64,000 nt of DNA from Hellea sp. (lineage in GTDB: Bacteria; Pseudomonadota; Alphaproteobacteria; Caulobacterales; Maricaulaceae): assembly GCA_020629875.1 (NCBI GenBank), contig JAHDCL010000002.1:15976-79975 (forward strand), written 5' to 3'. This document shows, piece after piece, positions 33,027 to 50,783 of the stretch (the first letter of the stretch is position 1; every line of letters begins with the position of its first letter). The notes beneath the pieces are model-generated. The model had not been told where the DNA came from. It searched no databases and was given only the letters and a program-made list of their open reading frames with translations. Position numbers and translations under genes: made by a program.

Positions 33027-34916
33027 ATGGTTGATAATATTGATGAGAGCCGCTCCTCGGGCGCTGCCTTAGCGGCCTCGATAGAGCTAGACAAAGATAA
33101 GCGTGGTAAAGCCCGCAGCGTTAAGCCGCTGCGGCAGCTGTTACCATTTATTGGGCGCTATAAGGGTATCGTTTTTGCCTTTATCATTTTCCTCATTCTT
33201 GCCGCTGCAATGCAGCTCTCTATTGGATTGGCCGTCAAAGTTATTACCGATTGCGGTTTTGTGGATGATACAAAATCCATCGCGGATTATTGTACAAAAT
33301 TTGCTGTTGGCGAACAAAATCAGATGGGGTCCTATTTCAAATTTGCTATCCTGATTGGCATTGGCGCCGCCGTTTTCGGAGCCCTGCGATTTTACTTCAT
33401 TAGTATCCTAGGGCAGCGGGTGATCGCAGATATTCGCAAAGCTGTTTATGATAAACTAACGCGGCTATCACCTGAATTTTTTGAACGCGTCCATACGGGT
33501 GAAGTTCTCTCGCGCCTGACAACGGACACAACGCTTATTGAGAGTGTTATCGGCTCATCCGTTTCTTTTGCAATCCGCTCTATTGCAACGGGGATAGGTT
33601 CGCTCGTCATCATGTTTTTCATCAGTTGGAAACTGACGTTGCTTGTTATGTGTATTGGCCCCGCCATAATTTTGCCAACCGTAATTATCGGCAAACGTAT
33701 TCGAACGCTCTCCCGCCGCAGCCAAGATAACTTGGCTAACGCCTCATCCCGCGCGGGAGAGAGCCTTAGCGCTATCCAAACTGTGCAAGCCTTCACCCGC
33801 GAAGATAAAGAACGCCGCGACTTTTCACAGGCCGTAGAAAACACTTACATCGCGCATCGCAAGCGCATCGCTGTACGCAGTCTGATGACGCTCATCATTT
33901 TTGGTCTCGGCATGACGGGAATGGTCGGCGTCTTTTGGTATGGTGCGCAAGAGGTCCAAAATTTCCAAGCGTCTGGCGGGGACGCAGGCATGACCAGCGG
34001 GGATATTTTCGCCTTTGGTATCTATGCCTTCAGCGTCGTGTCAGGTGTCGGCTTTCTCACAGGCACATGGACAGAACTCTTACGCGCATCAGGCGCGACG
34101 GAACGCGTGATGGAATTACTCTCAGAAGAGCCAAATATCGCCGCACCAACGGATCCAAAAACACTCTCAAACACTAAAGGCGCGATTGCATTTAGTAACG
34201 TCAATTTCATCTACCCATCCCGACCAACTGAGCAAACATTGGAAAATGTCAGCTTTGTGATTAAGCCCGGTGAAACCGTGGCCCTTGTTGGACCATCTGG
34301 TGCTGGCAAATCTACCATTTTCCAAGTACTTCTTCGCTTCTACGATATCGAGTCGGGGCGCGTAACGATTGACGGCGTTGAAATTGATGCTCTCTCTCCG
34401 CAAAATTTGCGTCAGCAATTTGCGATTGTTCAGCAAAACACGCCGCTCTTCTCTGGGTCTGCCATGGAAAACATACGCTATGGCCGCGAGGGTGCGAGTG
34501 ATGAGGATGTGATTATCGCTGCCAAGGCCGCCTTTGCTCACGAGTTCATTGAAAAGCTGCCGGAAGGTTACCAAACTGATCTTGGCGAATCCGCTGTGAC
34601 GCTATCTGGCGGCCAGCGCCAGCGCCTTGCGATTGCCCGCGCCATTTTGCGGGATGCTCCTGTGCTTTTACTTGATGAGGCTACCAGTGCTCTGGATGCA
34701 GAAAGTGAGCGAGCAGTTCAGAAAGCATTTGAAGAAATGTCTAAGACCAAAACGACTCTTGTTATTGCCCATCGCCTCGCCACGATTTTGAGCGCGGATC
34801 GAATTATTGTAATGGATCAGGGCCGCATTGTTGAAACCGGTACTCACACCGAGCTGTTAGCAAATAAAGGGCTCTATGCCCGCTTGGCAGATCTTCAGTT
34901 TGACTTAAAAACCTAG
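33027..34916 (+). CDS. ABC transporter, fused transmembrane and ATP-binding domains (MsbA-like exporter)
   Basis: VALVGPSGAGKSTIFQVLLRFYD; VTLSGGQRQRLAIARAILRDAPVLLLDEATSALD; six-TM N-terminal half. ATG at 33027 preferred over 32979. Confidence 0.94.
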   Translation: MVDNIDESRSSGAALAASIELDKDKRGKARSVKPLRQLLPFIGRYKGIVFAFIIFLILAAAMQLSIGLAVKVITDCGFVDDTKSIADYCTKFAVGEQNQMGSYFKFAILIGIGAAVFGALRFYFISILGQRVIADIRKAVYDKLTRLSPEFFERVHTGEVLSRLTTDTTLIESVIGSSVSFAIRSIATGIGSLVIMFFISWKLTLLVMCIGPAIILPTVIIGKRIRTLSRRSQDNLANASSRAGESLSAIQTVQAFTREDKERRDFSQAVENTYIAHRKRIAVRSLMTLIIFGLGMTGMVGVFWYGAQEVQNFQASGGDAGMTSGDIFAFGIYAFSVVSGVGFLTGTWTELLRASGATERVMELLSEEPNIAAPTDPKTLSNTKGAIAFSNVNFIYPSRPTEQTLENVSFVIKPGETVALVGPSGAGKSTIFQVLLRFYDIESGRVTIDGVEIDALSPQNLRQQFAIVQQNTPLFSGSAMENIRYGREGASDEDVIIAAKAAFAHEFIEKLPEGYQTDLGESAVTLSGGQRQRLAIARAILRDAPVLLLDEATSALDAESERAVQKAFEEMSKTKTTLVIAHRLATILSADRIIVMDQGRIVETGTHTELLANKGLYARLADLQFDLKT

Positions 34917-35945
34917 GCCCTTAGCCTTAGTTTTGACGCGCGCTAAAAATCTATGCGAAGTCATATATAGCGTATGGCCATCGTCGCCGAAGGTACAATT
35001 CGCAATCGCTGATCCCGTACGGATAAGACCTAATCGTTCACCCTCAGCCGAGAGAATGAGAACGCCGCCCGGGCCTGTGGCGTATAAATTTCCGTTTGTG
35101 TCTATGGCCATCCCATCAGGCAAACCAGGCTCTCCAGCTTTGACATCTGCGGTTACGTTTAAAATCTCTCGCTTGTCGTCTGGCATGCCGTTCTCATCCA
35201 AAGAGTAAGCCATCCACTTAGCATCGTTTGGGTCTGAATTCGCAACGTAAAGAGTGGCTTCATCGGGGGACAGAATGATGCCATTTGGGCGAGTCAATTT
35301 GTCATCCAATAGCGCAATTGCACCATCAGGATACAAGGCATAAACGCCGTTATAAGGCAGTTCTTTAGCAGAAGATTTATCTTGTTTTTCAAGACCATAA
35401 GGCGGATCGGTAAAGTATATTACTCCCGACTTTGACACGACAGCATCATTAGGGGAATTAAATCTCTTACCCTCAAAGCGATCGGCAAGAATTGCCTTTT
35501 CTTTTGACTTCACGTTTAGCTTATAAAGCGTGCGATTACCATGATCGGGCACAATGATATGTTCGCTATCGAGTAAGTATAGCCCATTTGCGCCCTGCGA
35601 ACTTGTATAGTTAGGTTTTGGGTCTGGGTGCCCCGACGGCGTCATCCATACTGATATCCCTTCGGCCTCTTTGAATCTGTAAATCGTGTTTCCAGGCACA
35701 TCGGTGTAGAGAAGATATCCCCCTTCATGTACCCAAACCGGTCCTTCTGACCAAGCATAATTTCCGCCAATTTTTTGAATGGGAGCATCGGGAGAAATCA
35801 GGTCAGCCGTCTTGGTCTCTATCGAACCTATTGTTTCGTATGAAAGGGTCTGAGTTTGGGAAACATTGCTGTCTGGCGCTTCTTGCTTTGGCGAGCATGC
35901 CAAGCACAAAGAAATAGCGGCCATACTTACACCAAAATGTTTCAT
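34905..35945 (-). CDS. SMP-30/gluconolactonase family lipoprotein
   Basis: EGPVWVHEGGYLLYTDVPGNTIYRF; RFNSPNDAVVSKSGVIYFTDPPYGLE; LTRPNGIILSPDEATLYVANSD; LPDGMAIDTNGNLYATGPGGV; lipobox LCLAC. Confidence 0.92.
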   Translation of the reverse strand: MKHFGVSMAAISLCLACSPKQEAPDSNVSQTQTLSYETIGSIETKTADLISPDAPIQKIGGNYAWSEGPVWVHEGGYLLYTDVPGNTIYRFKEAEGISVWMTPSGHPDPKPNYTSSQGANGLYLLDSEHIIVPDHGNRTLYKLNVKSKEKAILADRFEGKRFNSPNDAVVSKSGVIYFTDPPYGLEKQDKSSAKELPYNGVYALYPDGAIALLDDKLTRPNGIILSPDEATLYVANSDPNDAKWMAYSLDENGMPDDKREILNVTADVKAGEPGLPDGMAIDTNGNLYATGPGGVLILSAEGERLGLIRTGSAIANCTFGDDGHTLYMTSHRFLARVKTKAKGLGF

Positions 35946-36905
35946 CTAATTCTCCAACACCATTGCCGCCGCGCCGTAAAGGGCTACAAAGTGAGCTCTC
36001 ATCAATCGGACGGGTATATCCTGAATAAACCAACTTCCATGGGAGCGTTGACGGAATCGCTCTTTGAAATTCGACTCTGCAATAAATGGCGATACGTGTC
36101 GTGTCACGCCGCCAGCTAGAACAACACCACCGACAGCCCCCATCGTAAAGGCTGTATTTCCCGCAAAGGTCGAAAGAATGTCACAAAACATCACAACCGT
36201 TTTTCGAGCAACAGATTTAGGATTGGCTTCAGCGGCGGCAACGACTTCGTCTTCGCGGATACAAATCGCTGGCTCATCCAAAATCTCGCAAAGCGCGGTA
36301 TATAGCCTGAATAGGCCTGGACCTGAAATCAAGGTTTCTGCCGAGACATATCCCAGCTTTTTAAGCCAATATGCCAAAACTTGCATCTCAATTTCGTTCT
36401 GCGGTGAAAAGGCCGTATGCCCGCCCTCAGTGGGAATAATCCGAGGAGGTTTCCCCGGTAAAATACATGAGACACCCAAACCCGTCCCGGGCCCCAAAAC
36501 AGCGACAGGTTTATTGTAATTCACTTTCCCTGGAATTAGCGTATCAAACCCATCATCTGGGATAACCGTTGCCCCATTGGCCATAGCGACGAAATCATTT
36601 AGTACAATCGCTTCTTTGAACCCGAATGTCTCAACTAAGTTTTCTTCCGAAACGATCCAATCCACATTTGTCATGCGTATTTCATCATCAAATTTTGGCC
36701 CTGCGAAGGCAAAAGCCGCCCGACTTGGCTTTAGTTTCTGATGACTTAAATACTCCGTCACTACATCGTTAAAATGATCGTAGTCTTTGACGGCAAAGCG
36801 CTCCGAGTGATGCAGCTCTATCGTCCCGAGAGAGTTACGCTCCGCTAGCGCTAACCGGCAGTTCGTGCCTCCAACATCTCCGACTAGTGTGGTGGGTCCC
36901 ATCAT
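35946..36905 (-). CDS. glk: Glucokinase (ROK-unrelated, bacterial Glk family)
   Basis: TTLVGDVGGTNCRLALAERN; FAFAGPKFDDEIRMTNVDW; VLGPGTGLGVSCI; TEGGHTAFSPQNEIE. ATG at 36905 overlaps edd stop (ATGA). Confidence 0.93.
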   Translation of the reverse strand: MMGPTTLVGDVGGTNCRLALAERNSLGTIELHHSERFAVKDYDHFNDVVTEYLSHQKLKPSRAAFAFAGPKFDDEIRMTNVDWIVSEENLVETFGFKEAIVLNDFVAMANGATVIPDDGFDTLIPGKVNYNKPVAVLGPGTGLGVSCILPGKPPRIIPTEGGHTAFSPQNEIEMQVLAYWLKKLGYVSAETLISGPGLFRLYTALCEILDEPAICIREDEVVAAAEANPKSVARKTVVMFCDILSTFAGNTAFTMGAVGGVVLAGGVTRHVSPFIAESNFKERFRQRSHGSWFIQDIPVRLMRAHFVALYGAAAMVLEN

Positions 36906-38746
36906 TGCATCCACTTCGGCTTTCCGAGGACTGAAGCGCCTGCTTCAGAATTATCAGCTATGTCGCGCAAGGGAGCAAACATATTCATCCCCAACGCATC
37001 AAGGTTTTGGAACTGTGGCGCTGCCGCTAAGGGACGCTCAAGCCAGTTCGGGTCGGAAACAACATTTACGGTTTCCGATGCGGGATCGACGCGAACAATG
37101 TCGCCATCTTTGATTTTGGCGATATTACCTCCTGCCAAAGCCTCGGGATGCATATGAATAGCTGCAGGGACCTTCCCAGATGCGCCAGACATACGGCCAT
37201 CGGTAACCATTGCAATTTTAAACCCTTTATCCTGTAAGGACCCCATAATTGGCGTAAGTTTGTGTAGCTCAGGCATGCCATTTGCGCGTGGTCCCTGAAA
37301 CCGCAGCACAACAACAAAGTCTTTCTCGAGCTCACCAGCCTTATGCATCTCAATGAGTTTGTTTTGGTCATCAATCACGATTGCCGGTGCTTCGACGAGC
37401 CAGTTGTCACGTTTGACAGCAGAAACTTTCATCACGGAGCGTCCAATATTCCCCGTCAATAATCGAAGCCCCCCATCTGGGCGGAATGGCTTATCAATGG
37501 ACGTCAAAACTTCCGAGTCCAAACTTTCCTTCGGCCCATCCCGGAAAAGTACTGTGTCGGCCTCAGCATGGGCATTCTTTATTGGCTCTCGGGTATATTC
37601 GATGAGTCCCTCTCCGCCTGCGACAGTTTTCACATCTGTATGAACAAGACCTGCGTCAATCAACTGGCTCACGAGATATGCCATGCCTCCGGCTGCATGG
37701 AAATGGTTCACATCAGCAACACCATTGGGATAAATTCGGCAAATTAACGGCGTCGCATGAGAGATATCTGAAAAATCATCCCAATTAATAATTATGCCTG
37801 CCGCCGCAGCTATCGCAGCCATATGAATTGTAAGGTTTGTAGAGCCGCCAGTCGCCATCAGGCCAACCAGTCCGTTCACGATAGCCTTTTCATCGATGAC
37901 ATGAGCGGCGGGTGTGAAATCCCCACCGATATCTGTCATCTGGACGGCGCGGCGCGTGGTTTGCGCAGTGATCGCATCGCGTAGCGGCGTGTTGGGGTGT
38001 ACAAATGATGCCCCCGGTAGCTGCATGCCCATAATTTCCATCAGCATCTGATTTGAGTTTGCAGTTCCATAAAACGTACACGTACCCGGAGCGTGATAGG
38101 AGGCCGCTTCTGCCTTTAATAATTCATCTCGTCCGACCTTACCCTCTGCGAAGAGTTGTCGAACTTTGGCCTTCTCAGGGTTTGGAATCCCGGAAGGCAT
38201 CGGCCCCGCTGGCGCAAAAATTTGTGGGATGTAACCATAACGCAAAGCTGCAATCATCAACCCTGGTACAATCTTATCGCAAACCCCTAAATGGATAGCT
38301 GCGTCGAACATGTCGTGAGACAATGCGACAGCCGTAGAATAGGCAATTATATCCCGAGAAAAGAGCGAAAGCTCCATCCCGTCTTGCCCTTGTGTTACGC
38401 CATCGCACATAGCCGGAACGCCTCCGGCCACCTGGGCTGTCGCCCCATTTCTGCGAGCCGCGTGTTTGATAAGGTCGGGATAGTTTGCGAAGGGTTGGTG
38501 GGCAGAGAGCATGTCATTATACGCCGTAACGATGCCAATATTGGCCCATTTCGCACCAAGAAGCTCAGTTTTCTCCAAAACAGGGCAAGCCGCTGTTGCA
38601 TGCGCCACGTTCCCTTCTGAAAGTCGTTTTCGACGAGGGCCCGGACGAATGTTTGCGTCAACGGCGGCAAGGTAACCCTTCCGCGATTTTGCAGAGCGTT
38701 TTTGAATACGCTCAGTTACCATTTGGATCGTTGAATTCATGGACAT
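36902..38746 (-). CDS. edd: Phosphogluconate dehydratase
   Basis: [59 protein letters not shown]. Confidence 0.96.
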
Positions 38747-38749
38747 ATT

Positions 38750-39466
38750 TTACGTCTCATCCGTTATAATTGTAAGGCGCTCACCGGCTGCGCGAAGAGC
38801 TTTCACTGGTGCCTCAAAGACTGACTTTTCAGCGCTTTGTTCAAATACCTCGGCTTTATTAGCTCCGGGGATCATCAGGATTATTTGCCTGGACGCCATA
38901 ACCGCGGATAACGTCAACGAAATTCGATCAGGATGATCGCCTGCAACAGGACAGCCGCGGGCATCAATAGCTACAACGCTGTTAGGATTATTCGGGTCTA
39001 GCGCCTCTTCCAGCCCGGAAGAGTTAGGGAACCAAGAAGCGGTATGGCCGTCCAGCCCCATTCCCATAATGCAAACATCAAAAGGTTGTGGAATTTGAGA
39101 AATTTTCGCAGCGCTTGCTCTCAGCCCCGCCCTTGGATCCGCGTCACTGGTCTTCAATCCAATAAATTTTGCATTCTTCGCTAAGCTTTTGAATAATGTC
39201 CTATCCAAAAATGTCTCATTAGAACCCGCCTCGCCCCGCGCAATCCAGCGATCGTCAACAAGTCCGATTATGACTTTGTCCCACGGCAAATCCATCTCGG
39301 CAAGCGCCTCATAGACCGGCTGTGGACTGGATCCGCCAGAAAGCATCAGGCTTGCTGTACCCCTCATCGCTACAGCGGAGAGGATAGCATCAGCGATTAG
39401 CTGCTTTGCTTGTTCAACCATTGCCTCACGTGAGGTAAAGCTGAGATATTTTAATTCTTCTGACAA
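38750..39466 (-). CDS. pgl: 6-phosphogluconolactonase
   Basis: LMLSGGSSPQPVYEAL; VIIGLVDDRWIARGEAGSNE; CIMGMGLDGHTASWFPNS. Confidence 0.95.
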   Translation of the reverse strand: MSEELKYLSFTSREAMVEQAKQLIADAILSAVAMRGTASLMLSGGSSPQPVYEALAEMDLPWDKVIIGLVDDRWIARGEAGSNETFLDRTLFKSLAKNAKFIGLKTSDADPRAGLRASAAKISQIPQPFDVCIMGMGLDGHTASWFPNSSGLEEALDPNNPNSVVAIDARGCPVAGDHPDRISLTLSAVMASRQIILMIPGANKAEVFEQSAEKSVFEAPVKALRAAGERLTIITDET

Positions 39467-39468
39467 TT

Positions 39469-40977
39469 CTAACCTTTAGACCAACGATGACCATAGGCCG
39501 CTAACATATCATCTGCTTCTGCGGGGCCTTCGCTACCTGCAGCATACAGTTCAGTACGCTGCCCCGCCTGCTCCCACGCCTCCAAAATTCCATCAACCCA
39601 TTCCCACGCAGACTCAACCTCATCACGGCGCATGAATAGGCTCAAGTTCCCTCGGACGACATCCATCAACAGTCGTTCATAGGCGTCAGGGTAACGTACG
39701 GTGAAATTATCAGCATAGCTGAGGTTCAAAGGAAGTGTTTTTAAGCGCATACCGCCAGCCCCAGGTTCCTTGACCTCGAACCAGAGTTTTACTGCCTCAT
39801 CCGGCTGTAATCGGATGACCAACTTGTTTGGATTAACCGGGGTATCTCCAAAAATCGAGTGAGGAACAGATTTGAACTGAATGACAATTTCAGAACGGCG
39901 TGACGACATGCGCTTTCCTGTACGCAGATAAATTGGCACGCCTGCCCAACGCCAATTATCGACCTCAGCCTTTATCGCAACATAAGTTTCGGTTGAGCTT
40001 TCCGTAACGTCAACATCGCTCATGTAGTCAGTCACTGCCTCACCGTCGACTTTACCGCGGGCATATTGGCCACGCACTGTCTTACGGCCAACACTCTCTG
40101 CGGTGATTGGGCGTAAGGCGCGCAGAACCTTGATTTTCTCGGTTCTGACATCATTCGCATCAAGAGAACTCGGCGCTTCCATCGCGGTTAAACAAAGAAG
40201 TTGGAGCAAATGATTTTGCACCATATCGCGCAGGGCTCCAGCACCATCATAGTAGGAGCCGCGGCCACCTACTCCGATAGATTCCGCTGCAGTAATTTCA
40301 ATATGATCAATCGCCTGATTAGACCAAAGCGGCTCAAGAAGAATGTTCCCAAAACGGAGTACCAACAGATTTTGAACCGTTTCTTTGCCCAAATAGTGAT
40401 CGATACGGTAAATATTGTTCTCTTTAAATACTTTACCAACACCTTCATTGATGAGCCTCGCAGACTCATAGTCAGTCCCCAAGGGCTTTTCGAGAACCAC
40501 GCGGGCATTATCATGAACGAGACCCGCCTTATCTAAACCAACACAAATATCCGCGAACATGCGAGGTGGCATAGCTAAATAGAAAACCCGAATTAGCTTC
40601 TTCTTTGAAGACAGCGCTTTTTTCAAGCTTGACCAATCCTTGTCAGCCACGACATCAATGGCGACGTAATCCACCAACTTGATGAACTTAGCCCACAACT
40701 TGGGGTCAAATCCCTCACCTTTCGCATATTCATGGTAAGAGCTTTCGATCAGCGCCTGATATTCTTCTCGGCTGTGCTTTGAGCGAGAGACGCCAACAAT
40801 TCGGCTATCATCCGAAATTTGGCCATCTCGGTAGCGGTGATACAAGGACGGTAAGAGCTTGCGCCGTGCCAGGTCACCTGTTCCGCCAAACACAACTATC
40901 TCAAAAGGCTCGACAGGAACAAATGTAGAGCCCGAGCCTGTTTCATTTTCAAGATTTTTATTTTTAATTACTGTCAC
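39469..40977 (-). CDS. zwf: Glucose-6-phosphate 1-dehydrogenase
   Basis: IVVFGGTGDLARRKLLPSLYH; VVLEKPLGTDYESAR; YRIDHYLGKETVQNLLVLRFGN. GTG start. Confidence 0.96.
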   Translation of the reverse strand: MTVIKNKNLENETGSGSTFVPVEPFEIVVFGGTGDLARRKLLPSLYHRYRDGQISDDSRIVGVSRSKHSREEYQALIESSYHEYAKGEGFDPKLWAKFIKLVDYVAIDVVADKDWSSLKKALSSKKKLIRVFYLAMPPRMFADICVGLDKAGLVHDNARVVLEKPLGTDYESARLINEGVGKVFKENNIYRIDHYLGKETVQNLLVLRFGNILLEPLWSNQAIDHIEITAAESIGVGGRGSYYDGAGALRDMVQNHLLQLLCLTAMEAPSSLDANDVRTEKIKVLRALRPITAESVGRKTVRGQYARGKVDGEAVTDYMSDVDVTESSTETYVAIKAEVDNWRWAGVPIYLRTGKRMSSRRSEIVIQFKSVPHSIFGDTPVNPNKLVIRLQPDEAVKLWFEVKEPGAGGMRLKTLPLNLSYADNFTVRYPDAYERLLMDVVRGNLSLFMRRDEVESAWEWVDGILEAWEQAGQRTELYAAGSEGPAEADDMLAAYGHRWSKG

Positions 40978-41014: not shown

Positions 41015-41028
41015 TGACAGCGCTGTCA
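41015..41028. promoter_or_regulatory. LacI-family-type operator upstream of zwf
   Basis: Perfect palindrome TGACAGCGCTGTCA, 38 bp upstream of the zwf start codon; recurs at three other promoters in the window. Confidence 0.8.
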
Positions 41029-41039
41029 ATTTATCTCTA

Positions 41040-42047
41040 TCAGTTTTTTTCCGAAGTGGAATCGCGTACAATAAGTTTGTGGTCAAGACAATAGCTATGG
41101 AGCCTATCATCTTCATTAGGCGGCCTAATTAACAGCTCCGCAGCCCGATGTCCCATTTCATAAATGGGTTGCTTGATAGTTGTCAGCTGTGGGTACAAAA
41201 TTTGTGCTAGAGGGGTGTCATCAAAACCGCCCACGGAGAGCTCTTGCGGAACAGAGATGCCTAAGCGGCTTGCCACAGATACAACGCCTGCAGCCATATC
41301 ATCATTACTTGCAAATATGGCGGTCGGACGACTGGCTGAGCTCAATAATTTTTCAGCGGCAGCAACACCCGACCTGAAAGAAAAGTCGCCTGCAACCACC
41401 CACTCCTGATTTATTTCCAGCCCAACAGCATTCATCGCCTGCACAAACCCTTGATAACGCAGCTCGCTAGCATTGTGTTCGGGATGGCCTTTAATGAATC
41501 CTAACTTTCGGTGCCCTTGCCGAATTAAAAACTCTGTCATTTCATACGCTGCTTGCACATCGTCCATTTTGACTGAGCTCACTTCACGACCCTCGACGGC
41601 TGGAGCCACCGGGACGTAGGGTATTTTGAGCCTCCCCAAAATTGCTAAAATGTCTTCATCATCACATAGAGGCGGCGTCAGAATAATACCGTCAACAGGC
41701 AGACGTTCGAGCAAAAGATCAACCGCTTCAACTGCACTTTTCTCTCCCATACTCACGGGTTCGATTACGAGATGATATCTGTTATTCCGACAAGCATCTA
41801 TCGCGCCTTTTTGGATGTTTGCGATGTAGTTGGGACTGGGGTTATCGTATAGTAACGCCAGCAAGTAAGACTTTGAGCTTGCCAACCCTCTCGCTGCTAA
41901 ATTTGGAGAGTAACGAAGTTGTTTGGCCACCTCCAACACACGCTCACGCGTTTTCTTGGCAACATTAGGCTCATTATTGAGGACGCGCGACACGGTCTTC
42001 ATGGAGACCCCTGCTTGCTTCGCCACATCTGTTATTGTTGACTTCAT
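41040..42047 (-). CDS. LacI family transcriptional regulator
   Basis: MKSTITDVAKQAGVSMKTVSRVLNNEPNVAKKTRERVLEVAKQLRYSPNLAARGLAS HTH plus periplasmic-binding-like core. Confidence 0.96.
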   Translation of the reverse strand: MKSTITDVAKQAGVSMKTVSRVLNNEPNVAKKTRERVLEVAKQLRYSPNLAARGLASSKSYLLALLYDNPSPNYIANIQKGAIDACRNNRYHLVIEPVSMGEKSAVEAVDLLLERLPVDGIILTPPLCDDEDILAILGRLKIPYVPVAPAVEGREVSSVKMDDVQAAYEMTEFLIRQGHRKLGFIKGHPEHNASELRYQGFVQAMNAVGLEINQEWVVAGDFSFRSGVAAAEKLLSSASRPTAIFASNDDMAAGVVSVASRLGISVPQELSVGGFDDTPLAQILYPQLTTIKQPIYEMGHRAAELLIRPPNEDDRLHSYCLDHKLIVRDSTSEKN

Positions 42048-42171
42048 TGTAAATCTTAAGTTTGTGTGAGTCCCTGCCGCAGAGAAGAATGGAACAGAGC
42101 CAGGTAAAGGTCAATAAATCAATCTTATTGCGCACACCACAATCAAACAACTTCATATAAACAAGCCTTAT

Positions 42172-42185
42172 TGACAGCGCTGTCA
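42172..42185. promoter_or_regulatory. LacI-family-type operator in lacI/glk2 divergent region
   Basis: Perfect palindrome TGACAGCGCTGTCA between divergent 42047(-) and 42251(+) genes. Confidence 0.8.
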
Positions 42186-42250
42186 CATCGCCCTAACTAA
42201 ACACTACTAAATACTCACAGAAGCCAAAAAAATTGGCAGGGGGAAAGAAC

Positions 42251-43252
42251 GTGGCTCAACCCATATTGGTTGGAGATATTGGCGGTACAAATATCCGCTT
42301 TGCGGTCGCGCGATCAAGCGAAAAAGGCTTCCCAAAACTAACCCACATATGGCGGGCTCCTGCAAATGATTTTGCAGAATTTAGCGATGCCTTGGCATAT
42401 TTCTTAGAGCGAACACCTGCCTCCGAGCGCCCTGCACAAGCGGTCTTCGCGCTCGCGGGTCCAATTGATGACCACTCAGTTCGACTTACTAACAAAGCCT
42501 GGACTGTAAGGCGTGACGACCTCATCTCTCGCTTTGGCTTCGAACGACTAACATTCATGAATGACTTTGCTGCCATGGCTAGATCGATACCAGAGCTGCC
42601 TGAAACCGCATTTTTCTCAATACAAGAAGGCATGCCAACGCCAATTATTACACCCCAATCAACCCTTGCAGTGGCAGGGGCGGGCACAGGACTCGGACAG
42701 GCCTTACTTGTAGGCAGCGCCCAAGGCGGGTGGACTGTTCTACCCACCGAGGGCGGACATCAACCCTTTGCCCCCATGAACAGCTTTGAAAGCGAGATCC
42801 ATGAGTTGATGCGCAAAGGTCAGGGTTACGTTTCTTTTGAACAAATTTGCTCAGGGCGTGGACTTGAGGACGTTTACAAAACGATTGCTAAACTCCAAGG
42901 GAAACCCATCGTAGAACTTACGGCGAAAGAAATTACTGAACGTGCTAAAACTGGAGACAGTTTAGCCATAGATACATGTGAATTTGCTGCCAATGCACTC
43001 ATGAACTTTATTGGCAATGCAGTTCTAGCCAGTGGGTCATGGCGGGGTGCGGTAATAGCTGGCGGGGTTTCTCAGCATCTACAACCCTATTTCGACACCC
43101 CCAAAGCGAGAGAGCGTTTCAACAATAAAGGCAAAATGCAGAGCCGTATGGAACGAGTCCCATTACGACTACTAATAGACTCTACTGCTCCGCTTATCGG
43201 GGCCGCTGCCGCGCCTCAGACAAACAGACCGAGCCAATACTCGGCCTGGTAA
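42251..43252 (+). CDS. Second glucokinase
   Basis: PILVGDIGGTNIRFAVARS; VFALAGPIDDHSVRLTNKAW; VAGAGTGLGQALL; PTEGGHQPFAP. GTG at 42251 has upstream GGGGGAAAG; track starts at TTG 42233. Confidence 0.9.
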   Translation: MAQPILVGDIGGTNIRFAVARSSEKGFPKLTHIWRAPANDFAEFSDALAYFLERTPASERPAQAVFALAGPIDDHSVRLTNKAWTVRRDDLISRFGFERLTFMNDFAAMARSIPELPETAFFSIQEGMPTPIITPQSTLAVAGAGTGLGQALLVGSAQGGWTVLPTEGGHQPFAPMNSFESEIHELMRKGQGYVSFEQICSGRGLEDVYKTIAKLQGKPIVELTAKEITERAKTGDSLAIDTCEFAANALMNFIGNAVLASGSWRGAVIAGGVSQHLQPYFDTPKARERFNNKGKMQSRMERVPLRLLIDSTAPLIGAAAAPQTNRPSQYSAW

Positions 43253-43272
43253 CACGCGCCCGCGCTATTCGA

Positions 43273-45837
43273 CTATTTTAAACAGACGGCTTGGCCCTCA
43301 TTTGCAACAAGCTTGACATCAGAAAGCGTGAGACTGACGGCGTCGCTGGTTTCAATCACGAATGGTGAACGCACAAATTTGAGCGCAGAACCCTCTGCAA
43401 AACAGGAAAGCTTTACGGAAACATCCGTCCACTCTCCGACTTTTGTTTTCGACAATACCGCATCCAAAGGCTGAGACTGCCCACAGTTTTTTCCGCAATC
43501 AAGAGAGATGTTCACCTTTGCCGCGTCATTGCCACCTTCAGGGCGCAGGCGTATATAGACAGCCATGTCCCCGGTCGTCTGACGCGAAAGATCAACAGGC
43601 GTACCGCGAACTTCGAAACGGCCCAACCCCTTCCCATTAAAACTGAGCGTTCGAATATTCTCTTGTACGCCATCATCAGCCGAGACGATTGTTGTCACAC
43701 CGCCCGGAGACACCGCCCTACTCGTCTTGACGGTTTTCTTTCCCGCAGGACCTCCAATAATCATCTCCCAAGGGAAGACGGCCTTACCAGCTTTAAAGAA
43801 GTCACTATCGTTCTTCGCCGACAACTCGACGCCAGCATCCTCGGGAAGGTTCCCAACTTTTCCAGGTTTCGCGTATGATAACCCATATCCATAAGCAAAG
43901 AGTGGGTCGTAATTCTCATCATCATAATTTAACGGCGTTTGAATTGCTGTCCGAGGCCAAGAATAGGGCAACGTTCCCTTAAAGTCATAAGCAACATTAC
44001 CCTCCGCATCCGTAAATAAGAGATCGGCAGCATATCCACCCTCTGACCCAGGAAGCCAAGCTGCTACAAAGGCATCGGATGCATTAATTTCTCTATTCAT
44101 CCAAAGCGGACGACCTGACAGGAAAATTGCAACAGTAGGGATTCCTGCGGCCCTATATTTCTTTAGTAGGTTCAAATCACTATCGTCGCCTGGTTTGTAG
44201 GCTAGATTATCTATATCACCCTTGAACTCAGCATATGGTTCTTCCCCAAAAACGACAATCGCGACTGTTGGAGAGCCGCTATACTCTCCGTCAGCGTCTG
44301 CAAGAAGGACTTCTCCATCCGCAGCTTCAACATGCCGTTTTATTCCATCAAGGAAAGAAGACCCCCCAGGGAAATCCGAATTTTTATTCCCTGTTCCTTG
44401 CCATGAAAGCGTCCAGCCTCCAGATTGCTTCCCGATATTATCAGCGCCATCTCCAGCAACCAATACTTTCGCTTTGGGGTTTATTGGCAATACGCCATTA
44501 TTTTTAATCAAGACCTGACTTTCACGCACAGCTTGCCGAGCTACTGCTTTTGAAGCTGGGTCTTGAAGGAGATCATAATCCGCAGCACCGGGACGTGATG
44601 ATGGTTTGCCTGCATCTAAAAGCCCCGACCGAATTTTGACACGCAAAATTCGCCGGACCGCATCATCAAGTCGATCTAAATCAAGCTGTCCGCTTTCTGC
44701 TTGGGCCAATGTGTTATCAAACAAACCTCGCCAACTATCAGGCGCCATATACATATCCAGACCAGCATGAAGCGCGTCGGGGCAGTTCTCATTTGAACAA
44801 CTGTCGAGCTGCCCATGAGCGTTCCAGTCGCCAACGACAAAACCATCAAAACCCATTTGACCTTTCAGGACATCAGTCAACAGTCCCTTATGCCCATGCA
44901 ACTTTGTCCCCTGCCAACTGGAAAATGAAGCCATCACAGATTGGGCACCTGCATTAATGGCTACTGGATATCCTGACCCGTGAATATCACGGAGCTGCTC
45001 TTCTGTGTCCAGATTATCACCTTGGTCTCGACCTTGATTAGTTCCGCCATCGCCAAGAAAATGCTTAGCTGTCGCAATAACTTTCTTCCCTTTAAGCCAA
45101 GTTTCCGACCCCGGCTCACCCTGAATCCCGCGAATAAGCTCGCCAGCATAAGAGGCGGTAACATCTGGGTTTTCAGAATAACCTTCATAGGTTCTACCCC
45201 ATCTATCATCACGCACCACCGCAATCGTAGGCGCGAAAGTCCACTCTTGGGCACCAACACGAATTTCTTGCGCGGTAATCGCACCGATTTTTCCCAAAAG
45301 CTTCGGATTTCGGGTCGCGCCCAGTCCAATGTTATGTGGAAAGACTGTGGCACCAGGGATGTTATTATGACCATGCACCGCATCGGTCCCCCAAATCATT
45401 GGAATGAAAGGCACACCATCCCCATAAGCCTCCTTAGAGGCTTCGTAAAACTCATCGGCAAGCTCGACCCAAGCTGATGCAGGTGACCGGTTGTCTCCAT
45501 TAGGTGCGGAGTTCCCTCCATTGAGGATAGACCCAAGCGGATAACTCTTTATATCTTCGGGGGTTATAGATCCGATATCAGCTTGGATAACCTGCCCGAC
45601 TTTGTGGCGTAGCTCCATATTGGACATCAAATCAGTGATGCGCGACTCGATAGCTGGGTCGAGACCCACAGGACTCTTCGCTACAGGCCAAATTGAAGGA
45701 TCAACAGAACCAGGTGTTCGAACGACGTTCATTGCAGTTTTCTTGTCGCCCTCTTTCCCATCATCCGCTGAACAGGATACTAACGCGGCTGTTAAACCGC
45801 ACATAGCCACAGTTATAAGCAAATTCGATTTTGTCAT
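43273..45837 (-). CDS. Glycoside hydrolase family 3 (exo-beta-glucosidase/glucohydrolase type) lipoprotein
   Basis: IWGTDAVHGHNNIPGATVFPHNIGLGATRNP; ATAKHFLGDGGTNQGRDQGDN; GFVVGDWNAHGQ (nucleophile Asp); lipobox VSCS; C-terminal carbohydrate-binding-like region. Confidence 0.93.
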   Translation of the reverse strand: MTKSNLLITVAMCGLTAALVSCSADDGKEGDKKTAMNVVRTPGSVDPSIWPVAKSPVGLDPAIESRITDLMSNMELRHKVGQVIQADIGSITPEDIKSYPLGSILNGGNSAPNGDNRSPASAWVELADEFYEASKEAYGDGVPFIPMIWGTDAVHGHNNIPGATVFPHNIGLGATRNPKLLGKIGAITAQEIRVGAQEWTFAPTIAVVRDDRWGRTYEGYSENPDVTASYAGELIRGIQGEPGSETWLKGKKVIATAKHFLGDGGTNQGRDQGDNLDTEEQLRDIHGSGYPVAINAGAQSVMASFSSWQGTKLHGHKGLLTDVLKGQMGFDGFVVGDWNAHGQLDSCSNENCPDALHAGLDMYMAPDSWRGLFDNTLAQAESGQLDLDRLDDAVRRILRVKIRSGLLDAGKPSSRPGAADYDLLQDPASKAVARQAVRESQVLIKNNGVLPINPKAKVLVAGDGADNIGKQSGGWTLSWQGTGNKNSDFPGGSSFLDGIKRHVEAADGEVLLADADGEYSGSPTVAIVVFGEEPYAEFKGDIDNLAYKPGDDSDLNLLKKYRAAGIPTVAIFLSGRPLWMNREINASDAFVAAWLPGSEGGYAADLLFTDAEGNVAYDFKGTLPYSWPRTAIQTPLNYDDENYDPLFAYGYGLSYAKPGKVGNLPEDAGVELSAKNDSDFFKAGKAVFPWEMIIGGPAGKKTVKTSRAVSPGGVTTIVSADDGVQENIRTLSFNGKGLGRFEVRGTPVDLSRQTTGDMAVYIRLRPEGGNDAAKVNISLDCGKNCGQSQPLDAVLSKTKVGEWTDVSVKLSCFAEGSALKFVRSPFVIETSDAVSLTLSDVKLVANEGQAVCLK

Positions 45838-45921
45838 TGGTCTCTCCCGAATACTCTATTTTTATACGGCCATTCCGAATAAGGGGCCACTTATGTAAGG
45901 TTCGCCTAAAAATGACGAAAA

Positions 45922-45935
45922 TGACAGCGCTGTCA
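45922..45935. promoter_or_regulatory. LacI-family-type operator upstream of GH3 gene
   Basis: Perfect palindrome TGACAGCGCTGTCA 84 bp upstream of the GH3 start. Confidence 0.8.
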
Positions 45936-46044
45936 AATGCTATTTAAAAATTTCGAGTTTACTCGTTACAATTACATGGGTTGAGGCAGGCGGAGTCCAT
46001 TTATGACCACCCCGCAGAAACGCAACTAGACGCAAACGTCTGAG

Positions 46045-46122
46045 TTAGAGACCTAAAAAAAGCGCAACAAGGAATATAACGAGAATAATCAGCGCTTCCT
46101 TGATTTTAATAAGTGTATTCAT
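46045..46122 (-). CDS. Candidate 25-aa single-TM microprotein
   Basis: Minus-strand ATG..TAA translates MNTLIKIKEALIILVIFLVALFLGL; purine-rich AAAGAGAGATGAT precedes the ATG. Too short for the ORF track. Confidence 0.5.
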   Translation of the reverse strand: MNTLIKIKEALIILVIFLVALFLGL

Positions 46123-46289
46123 ATCATCTCTCTTTGATAGAACTCGCTTACTGCAAAACGATAAAAAAGTAAATCAGAATCGAACGCGGAAATTGCAAAA
46201 CATATTGGCAGCGTCAAATAGACCGCAGCAAAATGCGCTACGGCCCCATTAACTCCAATAGACTCTCGTCGAACTTTCCTCTCACTTCC

Positions 46290-47885
46290 CTACCAAAAAG
46301 CTGCATATAACGCGACGAGTACAAGTCCAATGACCAGTGACCATAGATTAAAACTTGCGGAAGTTTTAAAACTGATATCACCCAACATCACCGACTGCCC
46401 CTCGCGCGGAGAAGATGTGAATTTAGACACGATGATTCCCAAAGCAACACATCCCAAGAAGATTACCCAAATGCGGTTCACAAACTGAAAGTCCGGGAAC
46501 ACGGTCGCAATTAGGGGAGACAAAATAACAGATGCGAGGAGCATCGCAAACGCTCCCGCGGAATTAGTGGGCTTGTAAAACATGCCCAGTAGGAAGACCG
46601 CGACGACACCAGGAGCAATATAGCCGGTGAGCTCTTGCACCGTTTGAAACGCACTTTCCATATTCTGGAATATTGGCTGAGCAATTATTACCGCAAATAC
46701 CATCGCAGCAACAGCCGTAATCCGGCCAACGGTTACATAATGCTGCTCGCTTTTATCAGACTTAGCCATCTTATAAAGATCCATCGTGAAGATGGTCGAA
46801 ATCGAATTCATCATAGATGCAAGCGAAGAGACAATTGCAGCGACCAGAGCCGCAAAGATTAGTCCGCGCAATCCACTCGGCATAATCCGCATCACTTCGG
46901 GATAAGCGCGGTCGGTTTTATCGGCTAGTACATCCGCATTCACGGCGCCAAATTCCGGCGTGGCCAACATAACCGCTGCGATGCCTGGCAACACGATAAT
47001 TAGCGGCATAAGGAGCTTCAATGCCGCTGCAAAGACAAGACCCTTTTGAGCTTCTTTGATATCCTTGGCGCCCAAAGCCCTCTGGATGATATACTGATTA
47101 AAGCCCCAATAATTCAGATGAAGAATCCAAAGGCCGCCAAGTAAAGTCCAGATACCCGGAAGCGTGTCATATCCTTTTTGGCCCTTTTCAAAAATCATAT
47201 CAAATTTATCAGGAAGTTCCGTGTAGATGCGCTTTAAACCGCCGCCAACTCCAGCATCACCACCAATCATTCCCATTGTCAGCCAGGCAATCACAAGTCC
47301 CCCAAGAACCAAAATAACGACTTGAATGATGTCGGTTAGAGCAACGGCTTTAAGGCCGCCCCAGAATGAGTAAAGTATCGCGAATGCGCCGAGCCCCGCC
47401 ATTCCCATAAAGATTGAAACCCCGGTCAGCGTATTAATTGCAAGCGCTCCGAGCCACAACACAGTTGTAAGGTTGACCGCTGTGTAAAGAAAAATCCAAT
47501 ATCCCGACATGAGGGTTTTCACACCTGTACCATATCGCGTTTCAAGGAATTGCGGCATTGTAAATATTTCGCGTTTCAGGAAAATCGGCAAGAAATATTT
47601 AGCAACAACAATCAGAACAATGGCCGCTTGCCATTCATACGCGGCAATAGCGAGACCTATTCGAAAGCCCTCACCCGACATGCCAATAATCTGCTCAGCC
47701 GATATATTGGCGGCAATCAAAGAAGCACCAATTGCCCACCACGGCAGAGACTTTCCTGCTAAAAAGTAATCTTCGGTGTTCTTCGCATGCCCGTCTTTTT
47801 CGCGCGAAACGTATAACGCAACGGCCAATAACATGACGGCATACGCCACCAAAACAATTAAGTCTAACGTTGATAATGCTGACAT
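46290..47885 (-). CDS. Sodium:solute symporter (SSS family) sugar cotransporter
   Basis: MSALSTLDLIVLVAYAVMLLAVALYVSREKDG...EDYFLAGKSLPWWAIGASLIAANISAEQIIGMSGEGF (vSGLT-like). ATG at 47885 after AGGGGA; track start is a TTG. Confidence 0.93.
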   Translation of the reverse strand: MSALSTLDLIVLVAYAVMLLAVALYVSREKDGHAKNTEDYFLAGKSLPWWAIGASLIAANISAEQIIGMSGEGFRIGLAIAAYEWQAAIVLIVVAKYFLPIFLKREIFTMPQFLETRYGTGVKTLMSGYWIFLYTAVNLTTVLWLGALAINTLTGVSIFMGMAGLGAFAILYSFWGGLKAVALTDIIQVVILVLGGLVIAWLTMGMIGGDAGVGGGLKRIYTELPDKFDMIFEKGQKGYDTLPGIWTLLGGLWILHLNYWGFNQYIIQRALGAKDIKEAQKGLVFAAALKLLMPLIIVLPGIAAVMLATPEFGAVNADVLADKTDRAYPEVMRIMPSGLRGLIFAALVAAIVSSLASMMNSISTIFTMDLYKMAKSDKSEQHYVTVGRITAVAAMVFAVIIAQPIFQNMESAFQTVQELTGYIAPGVVAVFLLGMFYKPTNSAGAFAMLLASVILSPLIATVFPDFQFVNRIWVIFLGCVALGIIVSKFTSSPREGQSVMLGDISFKTSASFNLWSLVIGLVLVALYAAFW

Positions 47886-47947
47886 TTTCTGTCCCCTCAA
47901 TATTTTTGCACATGTGTCTGCGCTTTATTGCCATCATTCCCCTATAA

Positions 47948-47961
47948 TGACAGCGTTGTCA
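47948..47961. promoter_or_regulatory. LacI-family-type operator between transporter and xylB
   Basis: TGACAGCGTTGTCA, one mismatch from the perfect palindrome, in the divergent promoter region. Confidence 0.75.
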
Positions 47962-48021
47962 ATTTAAAGATGACACGTGGATGTTTTTGGTTTTATATGC
48001 GAGCCGGAGGAAATCACAAAC

Positions 48022-49470
48022 ATGTATCTAGGAATTGATATAGGCACATCAGGCGTCAAAGCCGTTCTGGTTGACGAAGCTCAGAACATTGTAGATCAAG
48101 CGACGGCGCCGCTAGTAGTCAATCGACCTCAGCCTTTATGGTCAGAACAAAACCCTGAAGGTTGGTGGGAGGCCACATGTGCCGCAGTTAAGCAACTGGA
48201 CCCGTTTAAGCGCTCTGGCGTTAAAGCTATTGGCCTATCGGGCCAAATGCACGGCGCCACCTGTTTGGACAATAACGATAAAGTATTGCGCCCAGCTATT
48301 TTGTGGAATGACGGACGCAGCCACTTGGAATGCCTGGGCATGATGGCCGAGATGCCGGAACTGACTCAAATAACAGGCAATCTCGCCATGCCAGGCTTCA
48401 CCGCGCCGAAACTCGAATGGATGCGTACTTATGAGGCCGAAAATTTTGTTAGGGTCGCGAAGGTTCTACTACCCAAAGACTATGTCCGTCTGCTCATGAC
48501 GGGGGATTACGCCTCCGATATGTCTGATAGCGCAGGCACACTCTGGATGGATGTCGCCAAGCGCGATTGGTCGGATGATGTTTTGGCGCTCACAGCCCTC
48601 ACCCGAGAACATATGCCCAAACTTTTTGAAGGCTCAGAAGCCACGGGCAAATTACGCAAGGATATCGCCATCGACTGGGGTGTTCCCCAAGTTCCCGTAG
48701 CTGCCGGCGGCGGTGACAATGCAGCAGGTGCCGTTGGCTCCGGCACGACATCGCCAGGTGAAGGATTTATCTCGCTAGGCACATCGGGCGTGACCTTCCT
48801 CGCCGATGACAGTTATCGCCCAAACCCCGAAGGCGCCGTGCATACCTTCTGCCACGCATTACCCGGCCTTTGGCATCAAATGAGCGTTATGTTATCTGCG
48901 GCAAGTGCTGTGGATTTTGTAGCGAAGATGGTAGGGTTCCCCCAGCCTTCCGACCTATATGCAGCCGCCGAGAACGCCAACCAACCCGGCCAGGGTGTAT
49001 TCTTCCTGCCCTATCTATCAGGTGAGCGCACCCCCCATAACAACCCAAATGCCAAAGGGGCATTTTTTGGCCTGACTCATGAAGACAATCAAACTTCACT
49101 CGCCCAAGCAGCACTCGAGGGTGTGGCATTTGCCTTAGCCGACGGAATTGACGCCCTACGCGAGACCGGAGCAGAGATTAAAGCACTTTCGGTGATTGGT
49201 GGAGGCGCGCGGTCTCACTATTGGGGCAAAATACTCTCAGCCGCATTTGATCTACCACTGCATTATCGCGGCGGAGCCGCGGTTGGTCCAGCTTTCGGCG
49301 CAGCAAGGCTCGCGAGACTGTCTGTTAGTGATGAGGCGGTGGAAGAAATTTGCCACCCTCCCGCCATCGAACACACCATTACCCCGAACACTATACTTCG
49401 TGACCACTACGCGACGCGACGTCAAACATTCCAAAAATTATACATACAAACTAAGGAGTTCACCTCATGA
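48022..49470 (+). CDS. xylB: Xylulokinase
   Basis: MYLGIDIGTSGVKAVLVDEAQNIV; GLSGQMHGATCLD; GGGDNAAGAVGSGTTSPGEGFISLGTSG. ATG at 48022 preceded by GGAGG. Confidence 0.95.
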   Translation: MYLGIDIGTSGVKAVLVDEAQNIVDQATAPLVVNRPQPLWSEQNPEGWWEATCAAVKQLDPFKRSGVKAIGLSGQMHGATCLDNNDKVLRPAILWNDGRSHLECLGMMAEMPELTQITGNLAMPGFTAPKLEWMRTYEAENFVRVAKVLLPKDYVRLLMTGDYASDMSDSAGTLWMDVAKRDWSDDVLALTALTREHMPKLFEGSEATGKLRKDIAIDWGVPQVPVAAGGGDNAAGAVGSGTTSPGEGFISLGTSGVTFLADDSYRPNPEGAVHTFCHALPGLWHQMSVMLSAASAVDFVAKMVGFPQPSDLYAAAENANQPGQGVFFLPYLSGERTPHNNPNAKGAFFGLTHEDNQTSLAQAALEGVAFALADGIDALRETGAEIKALSVIGGGARSHYWGKILSAAFDLPLHYRGGAAVGPAFGAARLARLSVSDEAVEEICHPPAIEHTITPNTILRDHYATRRQTFQKLYIQTKEFTS

Positions 49471-50783
49471 GCGGATATTTCGACCACATCGACCCCATAA
49501 AATTTGAAGGCCCAGAGAGCACCAACCCGCTCGCCTTCAGATATTATGACGCTAAGAAAAAAGTGCTGGGCAAGACCATCGAAGAGCATCTTCGCGTCGC
49601 AGTGTGCTACTGGCATAATTTTTGTTGGGATGGGCATGACATCTTTGGCGCTGGCACATTTGCTCGTCCTTGGTTACAGGGCGCAAATGATCAAGCCGCC
49701 GCGGAAGCTAAGCTCGATGCGGCGTTCAGTTTTTTTGAAAAACTTGGACAGCCTTTCTTCTGCTTCCACGATGTAGATATTATGGCAGAAGCGTCCACCC
49801 CCAAGGAGCATGTCGAAAACCTCGCGGCGATCGTTGATAAGATTGAAGCTAAGATGGATGCAGGCACAACCAAGCTCCTTTGGGGTACAGCCAATATGTT
49901 CTCCCATCCGCGCTTCATGGCAGGAGCTTCAACCAACCCGAACCCCGATGTCGCCGCTTTCGCAGCCTTGCAAGTTAAGCATGCGATGGAAGCCACACAT
50001 CGTCTAGGCGGCGCAGGCTATGTGTTTTGGGGCGGTCGCGAAGGCTATGACACCATCCTGAATACGAATGTTGGCCACGAGATGGAACAACTTGGACGCT
50101 TCTTGAACATGGCGGTTGAGCATAAGTATAAAATTGGCTTTCAGGGAGACCTCTGGATTGAACCAAAACCACATGAGCCAACCAAACATCAATATGACCG
50201 CGATGTAGGCACAGTTTATGGCTTCTTGAAAGAACATGGTCTGGAGAATGAAATTGGCGTCAATATCGAGCCAAACCATGCAACGCTTGCAGGGAACGCG
50301 TTTGAGCACGAAATCGAAATGGCAAATGCCTTTGGCATTTTCGGCTCCATCGACTTTAACCGCGGTGACCCGCAAAATGGTTGGGATACTGATCAGTTCC
50401 CTAACGATCTGCGCGAGACAACACTCGCTATGTATTACATTCTCAAAGGTGGCGGCTTTAAAAATGGTGGATCAAATTTCGACGCCAAGGTACGACGTCA
50501 ATCCTGTGATGCTGAAGACCTATTCCATGGCCACATTGGAGGCATGGACTTACTCGCTCGAGCGCTCATGAATGCAGCAGCGATGATAGAAAATGACCAA
50601 CTCCAGGCCTTTAAGGATAGCCGCTATTCAGGCTGGAGCACAGGCATTGGCAAACAGATGATGGACGGCAAGGCTTCGCTTGATGACATGGCAAACCACT
50701 GCCTCAAGGAAAATGCCTCGCCGAAGCCTGTGTCTGGACGCCAAGAGTACCTCGAAAACATTGTCACGCAGCGCGTGAGATAA
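49467..50783 (+). CDS. xylA: Xylose isomerase
   Basis: RVAVCYWHNFCWDGHDIFGAGTF; FCFHDVDIMAEA; YVFWGGREGYDTILNTN; GSIDFNRGDPQNGWDTDQFP. Confidence 0.97.
   Translation: MSGYFDHIDPIKFEGPESTNPLAFRYYDAKKKVLGKTIEEHLRVAVCYWHNFCWDGHDIFGAGTFARPWLQGANDQAAAEAKLDAAFSFFEKLGQPFFCFHDVDIMAEASTPKEHVENLAAIVDKIEAKMDAGTTKLLWGTANMFSHPRFMAGASTNPNPDVAAFAALQVKHAMEATHRLGGAGYVFWGGREGYDTILNTNVGHEMEQLGRFLNMAVEHKYKIGFQGDLWIEPKPHEPTKHQYDRDVGTVYGFLKEHGLENEIGVNIEPNHATLAGNAFEHEIEMANAFGIFGSIDFNRGDPQNGWDTDQFPNDLRETTLAMYYILKGGGFKNGGSNFDAKVRRQSCDAEDLFHGHIGGMDLLARALMNAAAMIENDQLQAFKDSRYSGWSTGIGKQMMDGKASLDDMANHCLKENASPKPVSGRQEYLENIVTQRVR

Follow-up and report, generated by a model that had tools for sequence, protein, structure and literature searches.

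Conserved palindromes as predicted operators of a GluR-like LacI-family sugar regulator in Hellea sp.

The closest described counterpart of the locus analyzed here is the GluR (CC2053) regulon, a comparative-genomic prediction of 2014 (RegPrecise) that covers Caulobacter only; glucose is its proposed effector, and GluR reportedly has no orthologues in other groups of Alphaproteobacteria (PMC4052901). Among the LacI-family regulators of central sugar metabolism in other Alphaproteobacteria, CceR senses 6-phosphogluconate (PMC4052901, PMC5507952). We analyzed a 64,000-nucleotide stretch of Hellea sp. DNA (contig JAHDCL010000002.1, positions 15,976 to 79,975), hereafter the window, and compared it with the draft genome to which it belongs and with related genomes. 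Four near-identical palindromes in the window are, with high probability, operators of the LacI-family protein encoded at 41040–42047, which we predict to be a GluR-like regulator of central sugar metabolism.

The regulator gene lies on the minus strand and encodes a LacI/GalR-family protein with an N-terminal LacI HTH and a Peripla_BP effector domain (PF00356 and PF13377, both over cut-off), which aligns over its full length with the CcpA and PurR structures. Regarding a possible identity with HexR, the RpiR-family regulator of the Entner–Doudoroff (ED) pathway, the protein matches LacI-family models alone in NCBIfam and Pfam. Its recognition helix is VSMKTVSRV (MK type). The identity reaches 80% in Hellea, making Hellea balneolensis the closest named relative by this protein, and is 51–52% to the Caulobacter proteins at the GluR position. 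On the same strand follow zwf (glucose-6-phosphate dehydrogenase, 39469–40977, TIGR00871 over cut-off), pgl (6-phosphogluconolactonase, 38750–39466), edd (phosphogluconate dehydratase, 36902–38746, TIGR01196 over cut-off), glk1 (glucokinase, 35946–36914, TIGR00749 just below cut-off) and a gluconolactonase-like SMP30/SGL protein (34905–35945, PF08450). On the other side of the regulator gene lies glk2 on the plus strand (42233–43252), which encodes a second glucokinase; both glucokinases match the glucokinase models strongly, yet under the curated cut-offs. Next come a GH3 exo-beta-glucanase-like enzyme with a C-terminal Exop_C domain (43273–45837, minus strand; PF00933, PF01915 and PF18559), an SSS-family sodium/solute symporter (46290–47900, minus strand; TIGR00813 over cut-off), and xylB (xylulokinase, 47977–49470, TIGR01312 over cut-off) and xylA (xylose isomerase, 49467–50783, TIGR02630 over cut-off) on the plus strand. 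The true starts of glk2 (GTG 42251) and xylB (ATG 48022) likely lie slightly 3′ of the longest-ORF starts. NCBIfam and Pfam uphold the gene names given in the initial annotation except for pgl, which is named from its place in the operon, where the gene order is conserved in relatives.

Three of the palindromes are exact copies of TGACAGCGCTGTCA. The first (41015–41028) is 38 bp upstream of zwf and contains a −35-like TTGACA pointing to zwf, the second (42172–42185) lies between the divergent lacI and glk2 genes, where it is predicted to serve autoregulation as well as glk2, and the third (45922–45935) is 85 bp upstream of GH3. The fourth, TGACAGCGTTGTCA (47948–47961), lies between the divergent SSS and xylB genes and is a hybrid; since it joins one G half to one A half, its regulator is ambiguous. 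These are the sole matches with at most one mismatch in the window, all four are intergenic, and their positions agree with those first reported. Dinucleotide-preserving shuffles of the window gave a mean of 0.04 such matches, and four were reached in none of 100. A chance origin is ruled out by the shuffles and by the conservation described below; as judged from the sequences, the set of sites is genuine and has been conserved in evolution, and through it one LacI-type regulator probably controls the breakdown of glucose and plant sugars. It is extremely improbable that an unrelated factor binds them or that they belong to a repeat element: the palindrome is even with a central CG and adjoins a LacI gene, its presence tracks the regulator, and its flanks differ between copies, which does not fit a dispersed repeat.

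In nine genomes, the lacI–zwf intergenic region is saturated with change and the palindrome is its sole conserved block. The zwf site is exact in 12 of the 13 cases examined, and a T precedes TGACA toward zwf in all 13. The position equivalent to the lacI/glk2 site is occupied in Hellea and Robiginitomaculum, and that of the GH3 site in Hellea; in some relatives the palindrome before lacI is missing. Across the relatives (Hellea, Algimonas and Robiginitomaculum), sites of this kind stand before glk2/lacI, GH3, GH5, GH10 and Gfo/Idh genes as well as pairs of TonB-receptor and tryptophan-halogenase-like genes. They are also found there before gap, pyk (L182), ppdK (L185 and L193), glgP/glgC and a PEP-carboxylase-like gene. 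Eda-like genes, read from the sequence, are divergent from lacI across TGACACCGCTGTCA in Algimonas and two relatives. The unlinked sites before gap, pyk, ppdK, glgP/glgC and the PEP-carboxylase-like gene bear on another explanation, in which a BglR-like regulon, whose regulator responds to beta-glucosides, controls only hydrolysis and glucose phosphorylation locally and the ED operon is a mere neighbor. The GH3, glucokinase and transporter targets do resemble those of BglR in Shewanella (PMC2996990) and of BglR1–3 in Caulobacterales (PMC4052901); however, the unlinked sites extend beyond such a regulon and the zwf site is the most conserved of all, so we regard this explanation as very unlikely.

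The palindrome also follows the regulator across genomes. Among 150 genomes of the order, which are not phylogenetically independent, the exact site is present in 7/7 genomes of the family whose homologue reaches 52% identity or more and in 10/143 of the others (Fisher, 7e-8). Six of these ten others have the site next to a GluR-like lacI, zwf, gap or GH3; the association therefore reaches past the split at 52% identity. One Hellea sp. metagenome-assembled genome (L037) has the regulator with neither zwf nor a site beside it. The proposal that a single LacI regulator stands behind the palindromes is well supported by the joint occurrence of site and regulator across genomes, by the conservation of the zwf site and by the site at lacI itself; that SSS/xylBA belongs to the regulon is less certain, given the hybrid site and a paralogue discussed below. 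In Gilvimarinus, a gammaproteobacterium outside the order, an MK-type lacI/transporter pair and a glk/GH3 pair both carry the same palindrome (L067:9915 and 18124), which suggests that the module has spread or is old. In one Robiginitomaculum genome, a TonB receptor is preceded by two tandem TGACAACGCTGTCA sites 45 bp apart (L178:12226 and 12271), on whose far side several tryptophan-halogenase-like genes follow in a row.

We also searched for the site by pattern throughout the draft genome (126 contigs, 2.59 Mb, 81% complete). With at most two mismatches, it occurs at 28 places, compared with 8 for a reversed control pattern. An exact site lies 33 bp upstream of a GH10 xylanase (C91), hybrid sites lie 38 bp upstream of a GntP permease (C1) and before a run of Gfo/Idh, TIM-barrel, MFS and GMC-oxidoreductase genes (C86), and a one-mismatch site lies 159 bp upstream of gap-pgk (C75). 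The last extends into the beginning of a small divergent gene, and for this reason gap-pgk is graded as only a probable member of the regulon here, although the corresponding place in Robiginitomaculum holds an exact palindrome. The scan yields further intergenic copies outside the window, before sugar genes. Of the extra targets that the initial annotation predicted, another glycosidase (GH10) is found in this genome, whereas TonB receptors and eda have the site only in relatives; the three PF01081 genes of this genome showed no convincing eda site. Its description of the regulon as local is too narrow, as gap, pyk, ppdK, glycogen genes, GntP and GH10 are reached in this genome or in relatives. 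A second gap gene (C57) has no site in this genome and its Hellea counterpart has an exact one, and no site with at most two mismatches was found upstream of pyk or ppdK in the 81% draft, in which these genes themselves were not located. Several other matches were set aside as targets. The one-mismatch matches at C47 and C109 are within genes, as are nearly all two-mismatch matches, and TGACACCGGTGTCA at C49:580 is assigned to the KK-type LacI nearby. On that contig (L120), TGACACCGGTGTCA precedes a TonB receptor and GGACACCGGTGTCA lies at about position 4540; with C at position 6, these two would represent an operator type of their own. The genome has four recognizable LacI genes.

These observations lead to a model of how the regulator may act. 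A dimer would sit on TGACAGCGCTGTCA and, at zwf and several peripheral targets, would cover the −35 hexamer TTGACA within the site. This would repress the ED operon, lacI itself and the genes for the second glucokinase, the beta-glucan hydrolase, further glycosidases and transporters until the regulator was released by a signal derived from glucose, which may be glucose itself, a beta-glucoside or a phosphorylated intermediate. The regulon would also take in GH10, GntP, Gfo/Idh and probably gap-pgk in this genome. What the sequences show is a conserved set of sites that co-occurs with the regulator, and from it we infer binding, the sign of control and the effector. Promoter occlusion is the likely mode of repression, since TTGACA faces zwf in 13/13 zwf sites and since the site at 47948 overlaps the best promoter-like match in the scanned SSS/xylB region, facing SSS. 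The promoter overlap is firm at zwf but not for every target, as the general −10 signal is weak: averaged over all sites, the matches at fixed spacing number 3.15, slightly above the 2.83 of the shuffles. At gap, where the site is close to the start codon, and at ppdK, where it is 161–201 bp upstream, control may be of either sign. As for the effector, glucose or beta-glucosides are suggested by the ED operon, the pair of glucokinases and the GH3 enzyme with its Exop_C domain.

The fourth site calls for a comparison of two LacI paralogues. MK-type proteins, including the distant ones of Gilvimarinus, adjoin the same palindrome as in the window. An FK-type paralogue in relatives adjoins GH3b-xylBA, has TGACAACGTTGTCA in its own promoter, and has TGACAGCGCTGTCA, TGACAACGCTGTCA or TGACACCGCTGTCA before the adjoining MFS transporter. 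The present genome has its own FK locus (C114, L121:3865–7818), in which an FK-type LacI gene carrying TGACAACCTTGTCA in its promoter and a second xylBA copy are divergently arranged, with an MFS transporter and a second GH10 alongside. In the tree, the FK protein of this locus groups with the FK clade of the relatives. In Hellea the gene order is zwf, lacI, glk2, GH3, MFS transporter, FK lacI, GH3b, xylBA, whereas the window has zwf, lacI, glk2, GH3, SSS, xylBA and hence lacks the FK gene at this position. Some of the sites, or even all, could be controlled mainly by the C114 protein, leaving the MK regulator only part of them. The operators beside the FK proteins of relatives are very similar to the palindrome of the window, and position 6 deviates more often at xylose/xylan sites (11/16) than at central-metabolism sites (5/33; Fisher 3e-4, for sites that are not independent). 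Nevertheless, the zwf, glk2 and GH3 sites are of the G/C type and co-occur with the MK gene, several relatives show no FK gene near these sites, and in this genome the FK gene is unlinked to all three. We consider this alternative unlikely overall, and most likely to apply at the SSS/xylBA hybrid. Recognition of the palindrome by another LacI paralogue is thus a live possibility at 47948 and less so at the three exact sites. The MK-type regulator, which we retain as the main one, would probably bind the hybrid site too, possibly in competition with the FK-type paralogue. As a tentative extension that we find somewhat doubtful, glucose-type MK and xylose-type FK repressors may share an operator code in which the base at position 6 sets the preference; hybrid sites would then integrate hexose and pentose supply, with xylBA of the window left at such a site after its FK gene had gone. 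The protein at the GluR position in Caulobacter is of IK type, with TGACAACGTTGTCA at zwf and also before glucose/galactose-permease-like genes. Two other Caulobacter loci (L169 and L170) hold a PM-type LacI with TGTTAGCGCTACCA beside the gene, which presumably resembles the Caulobacter XylR operator.

The sequence comparisons, solid as comparative genomics, place the window regulon among three groups of known systems. Like BglR of Shewanella and BglR1–3 of Caulobacterales, it would put beta-glucosidases, glucose transport and glucokinase under LacI-family control; those regulons are local, whereas the present one includes targets in the ED pathway and in lower glycolysis. CceR/GapR and PckR are likewise LacI-family proteins that govern glycolysis and the ED pathway globally (PMC4052901, PMC5507952). 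Published descriptions set them apart: they are reportedly not orthologues of GluR, have different DNA motifs and occur in Rhodobacteraceae/Rhizobiales. A literature search with the 14-mer led to a single paper, which concerns mannitol switches. The agreement with GluR is the closest: a LacI-family gene adjoins zwf-pgl-edd-glk in the window and most close relatives, a palindrome precedes zwf, an autoregulatory site precedes the regulator gene, and the GluR targets pyk and ppdK (PMC4052901) carry the site here in relatives. Four differences stand beside it. First, the regulator gene is upstream of the operon in the window and downstream in the case of GluR. Second, the zwf operator is TGACAGCGCTGTCA here and TGACAACGTTGTCA in Caulobacter, one base per half-site. 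Third, the GluR targets gnl-gfo and sucABCD had no site match nearby in our genome scan, in a draft where the genes themselves were not located. Lastly, the predicted targets here go beyond those of GluR in taking in gap, GH3/GH5/GH10, TonB receptors, GntP and possibly xylBA. In the free tree, the window clade and Caulobacter GluR stand apart in an unresolved backbone, and a joint clade is not rejected (AU p 0.194). Given the matching function, location and several targets, the one-base operator difference and a tree that neither proves nor rejects orthology, we call the regulon GluR-type and do not claim that the regulator is GluR. The MK, IK, FK and KK recognition helices, set against the base at position 6, offer a natural series for the study of operator specificity and paralogue overlap in the LacI family. 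In summary, the window regulon is probably a larger relative of the one already predicted in Caulobacter, which would extend the GluR-type regulon to Robiginitomaculaceae and to polysaccharide hydrolases and uptake.
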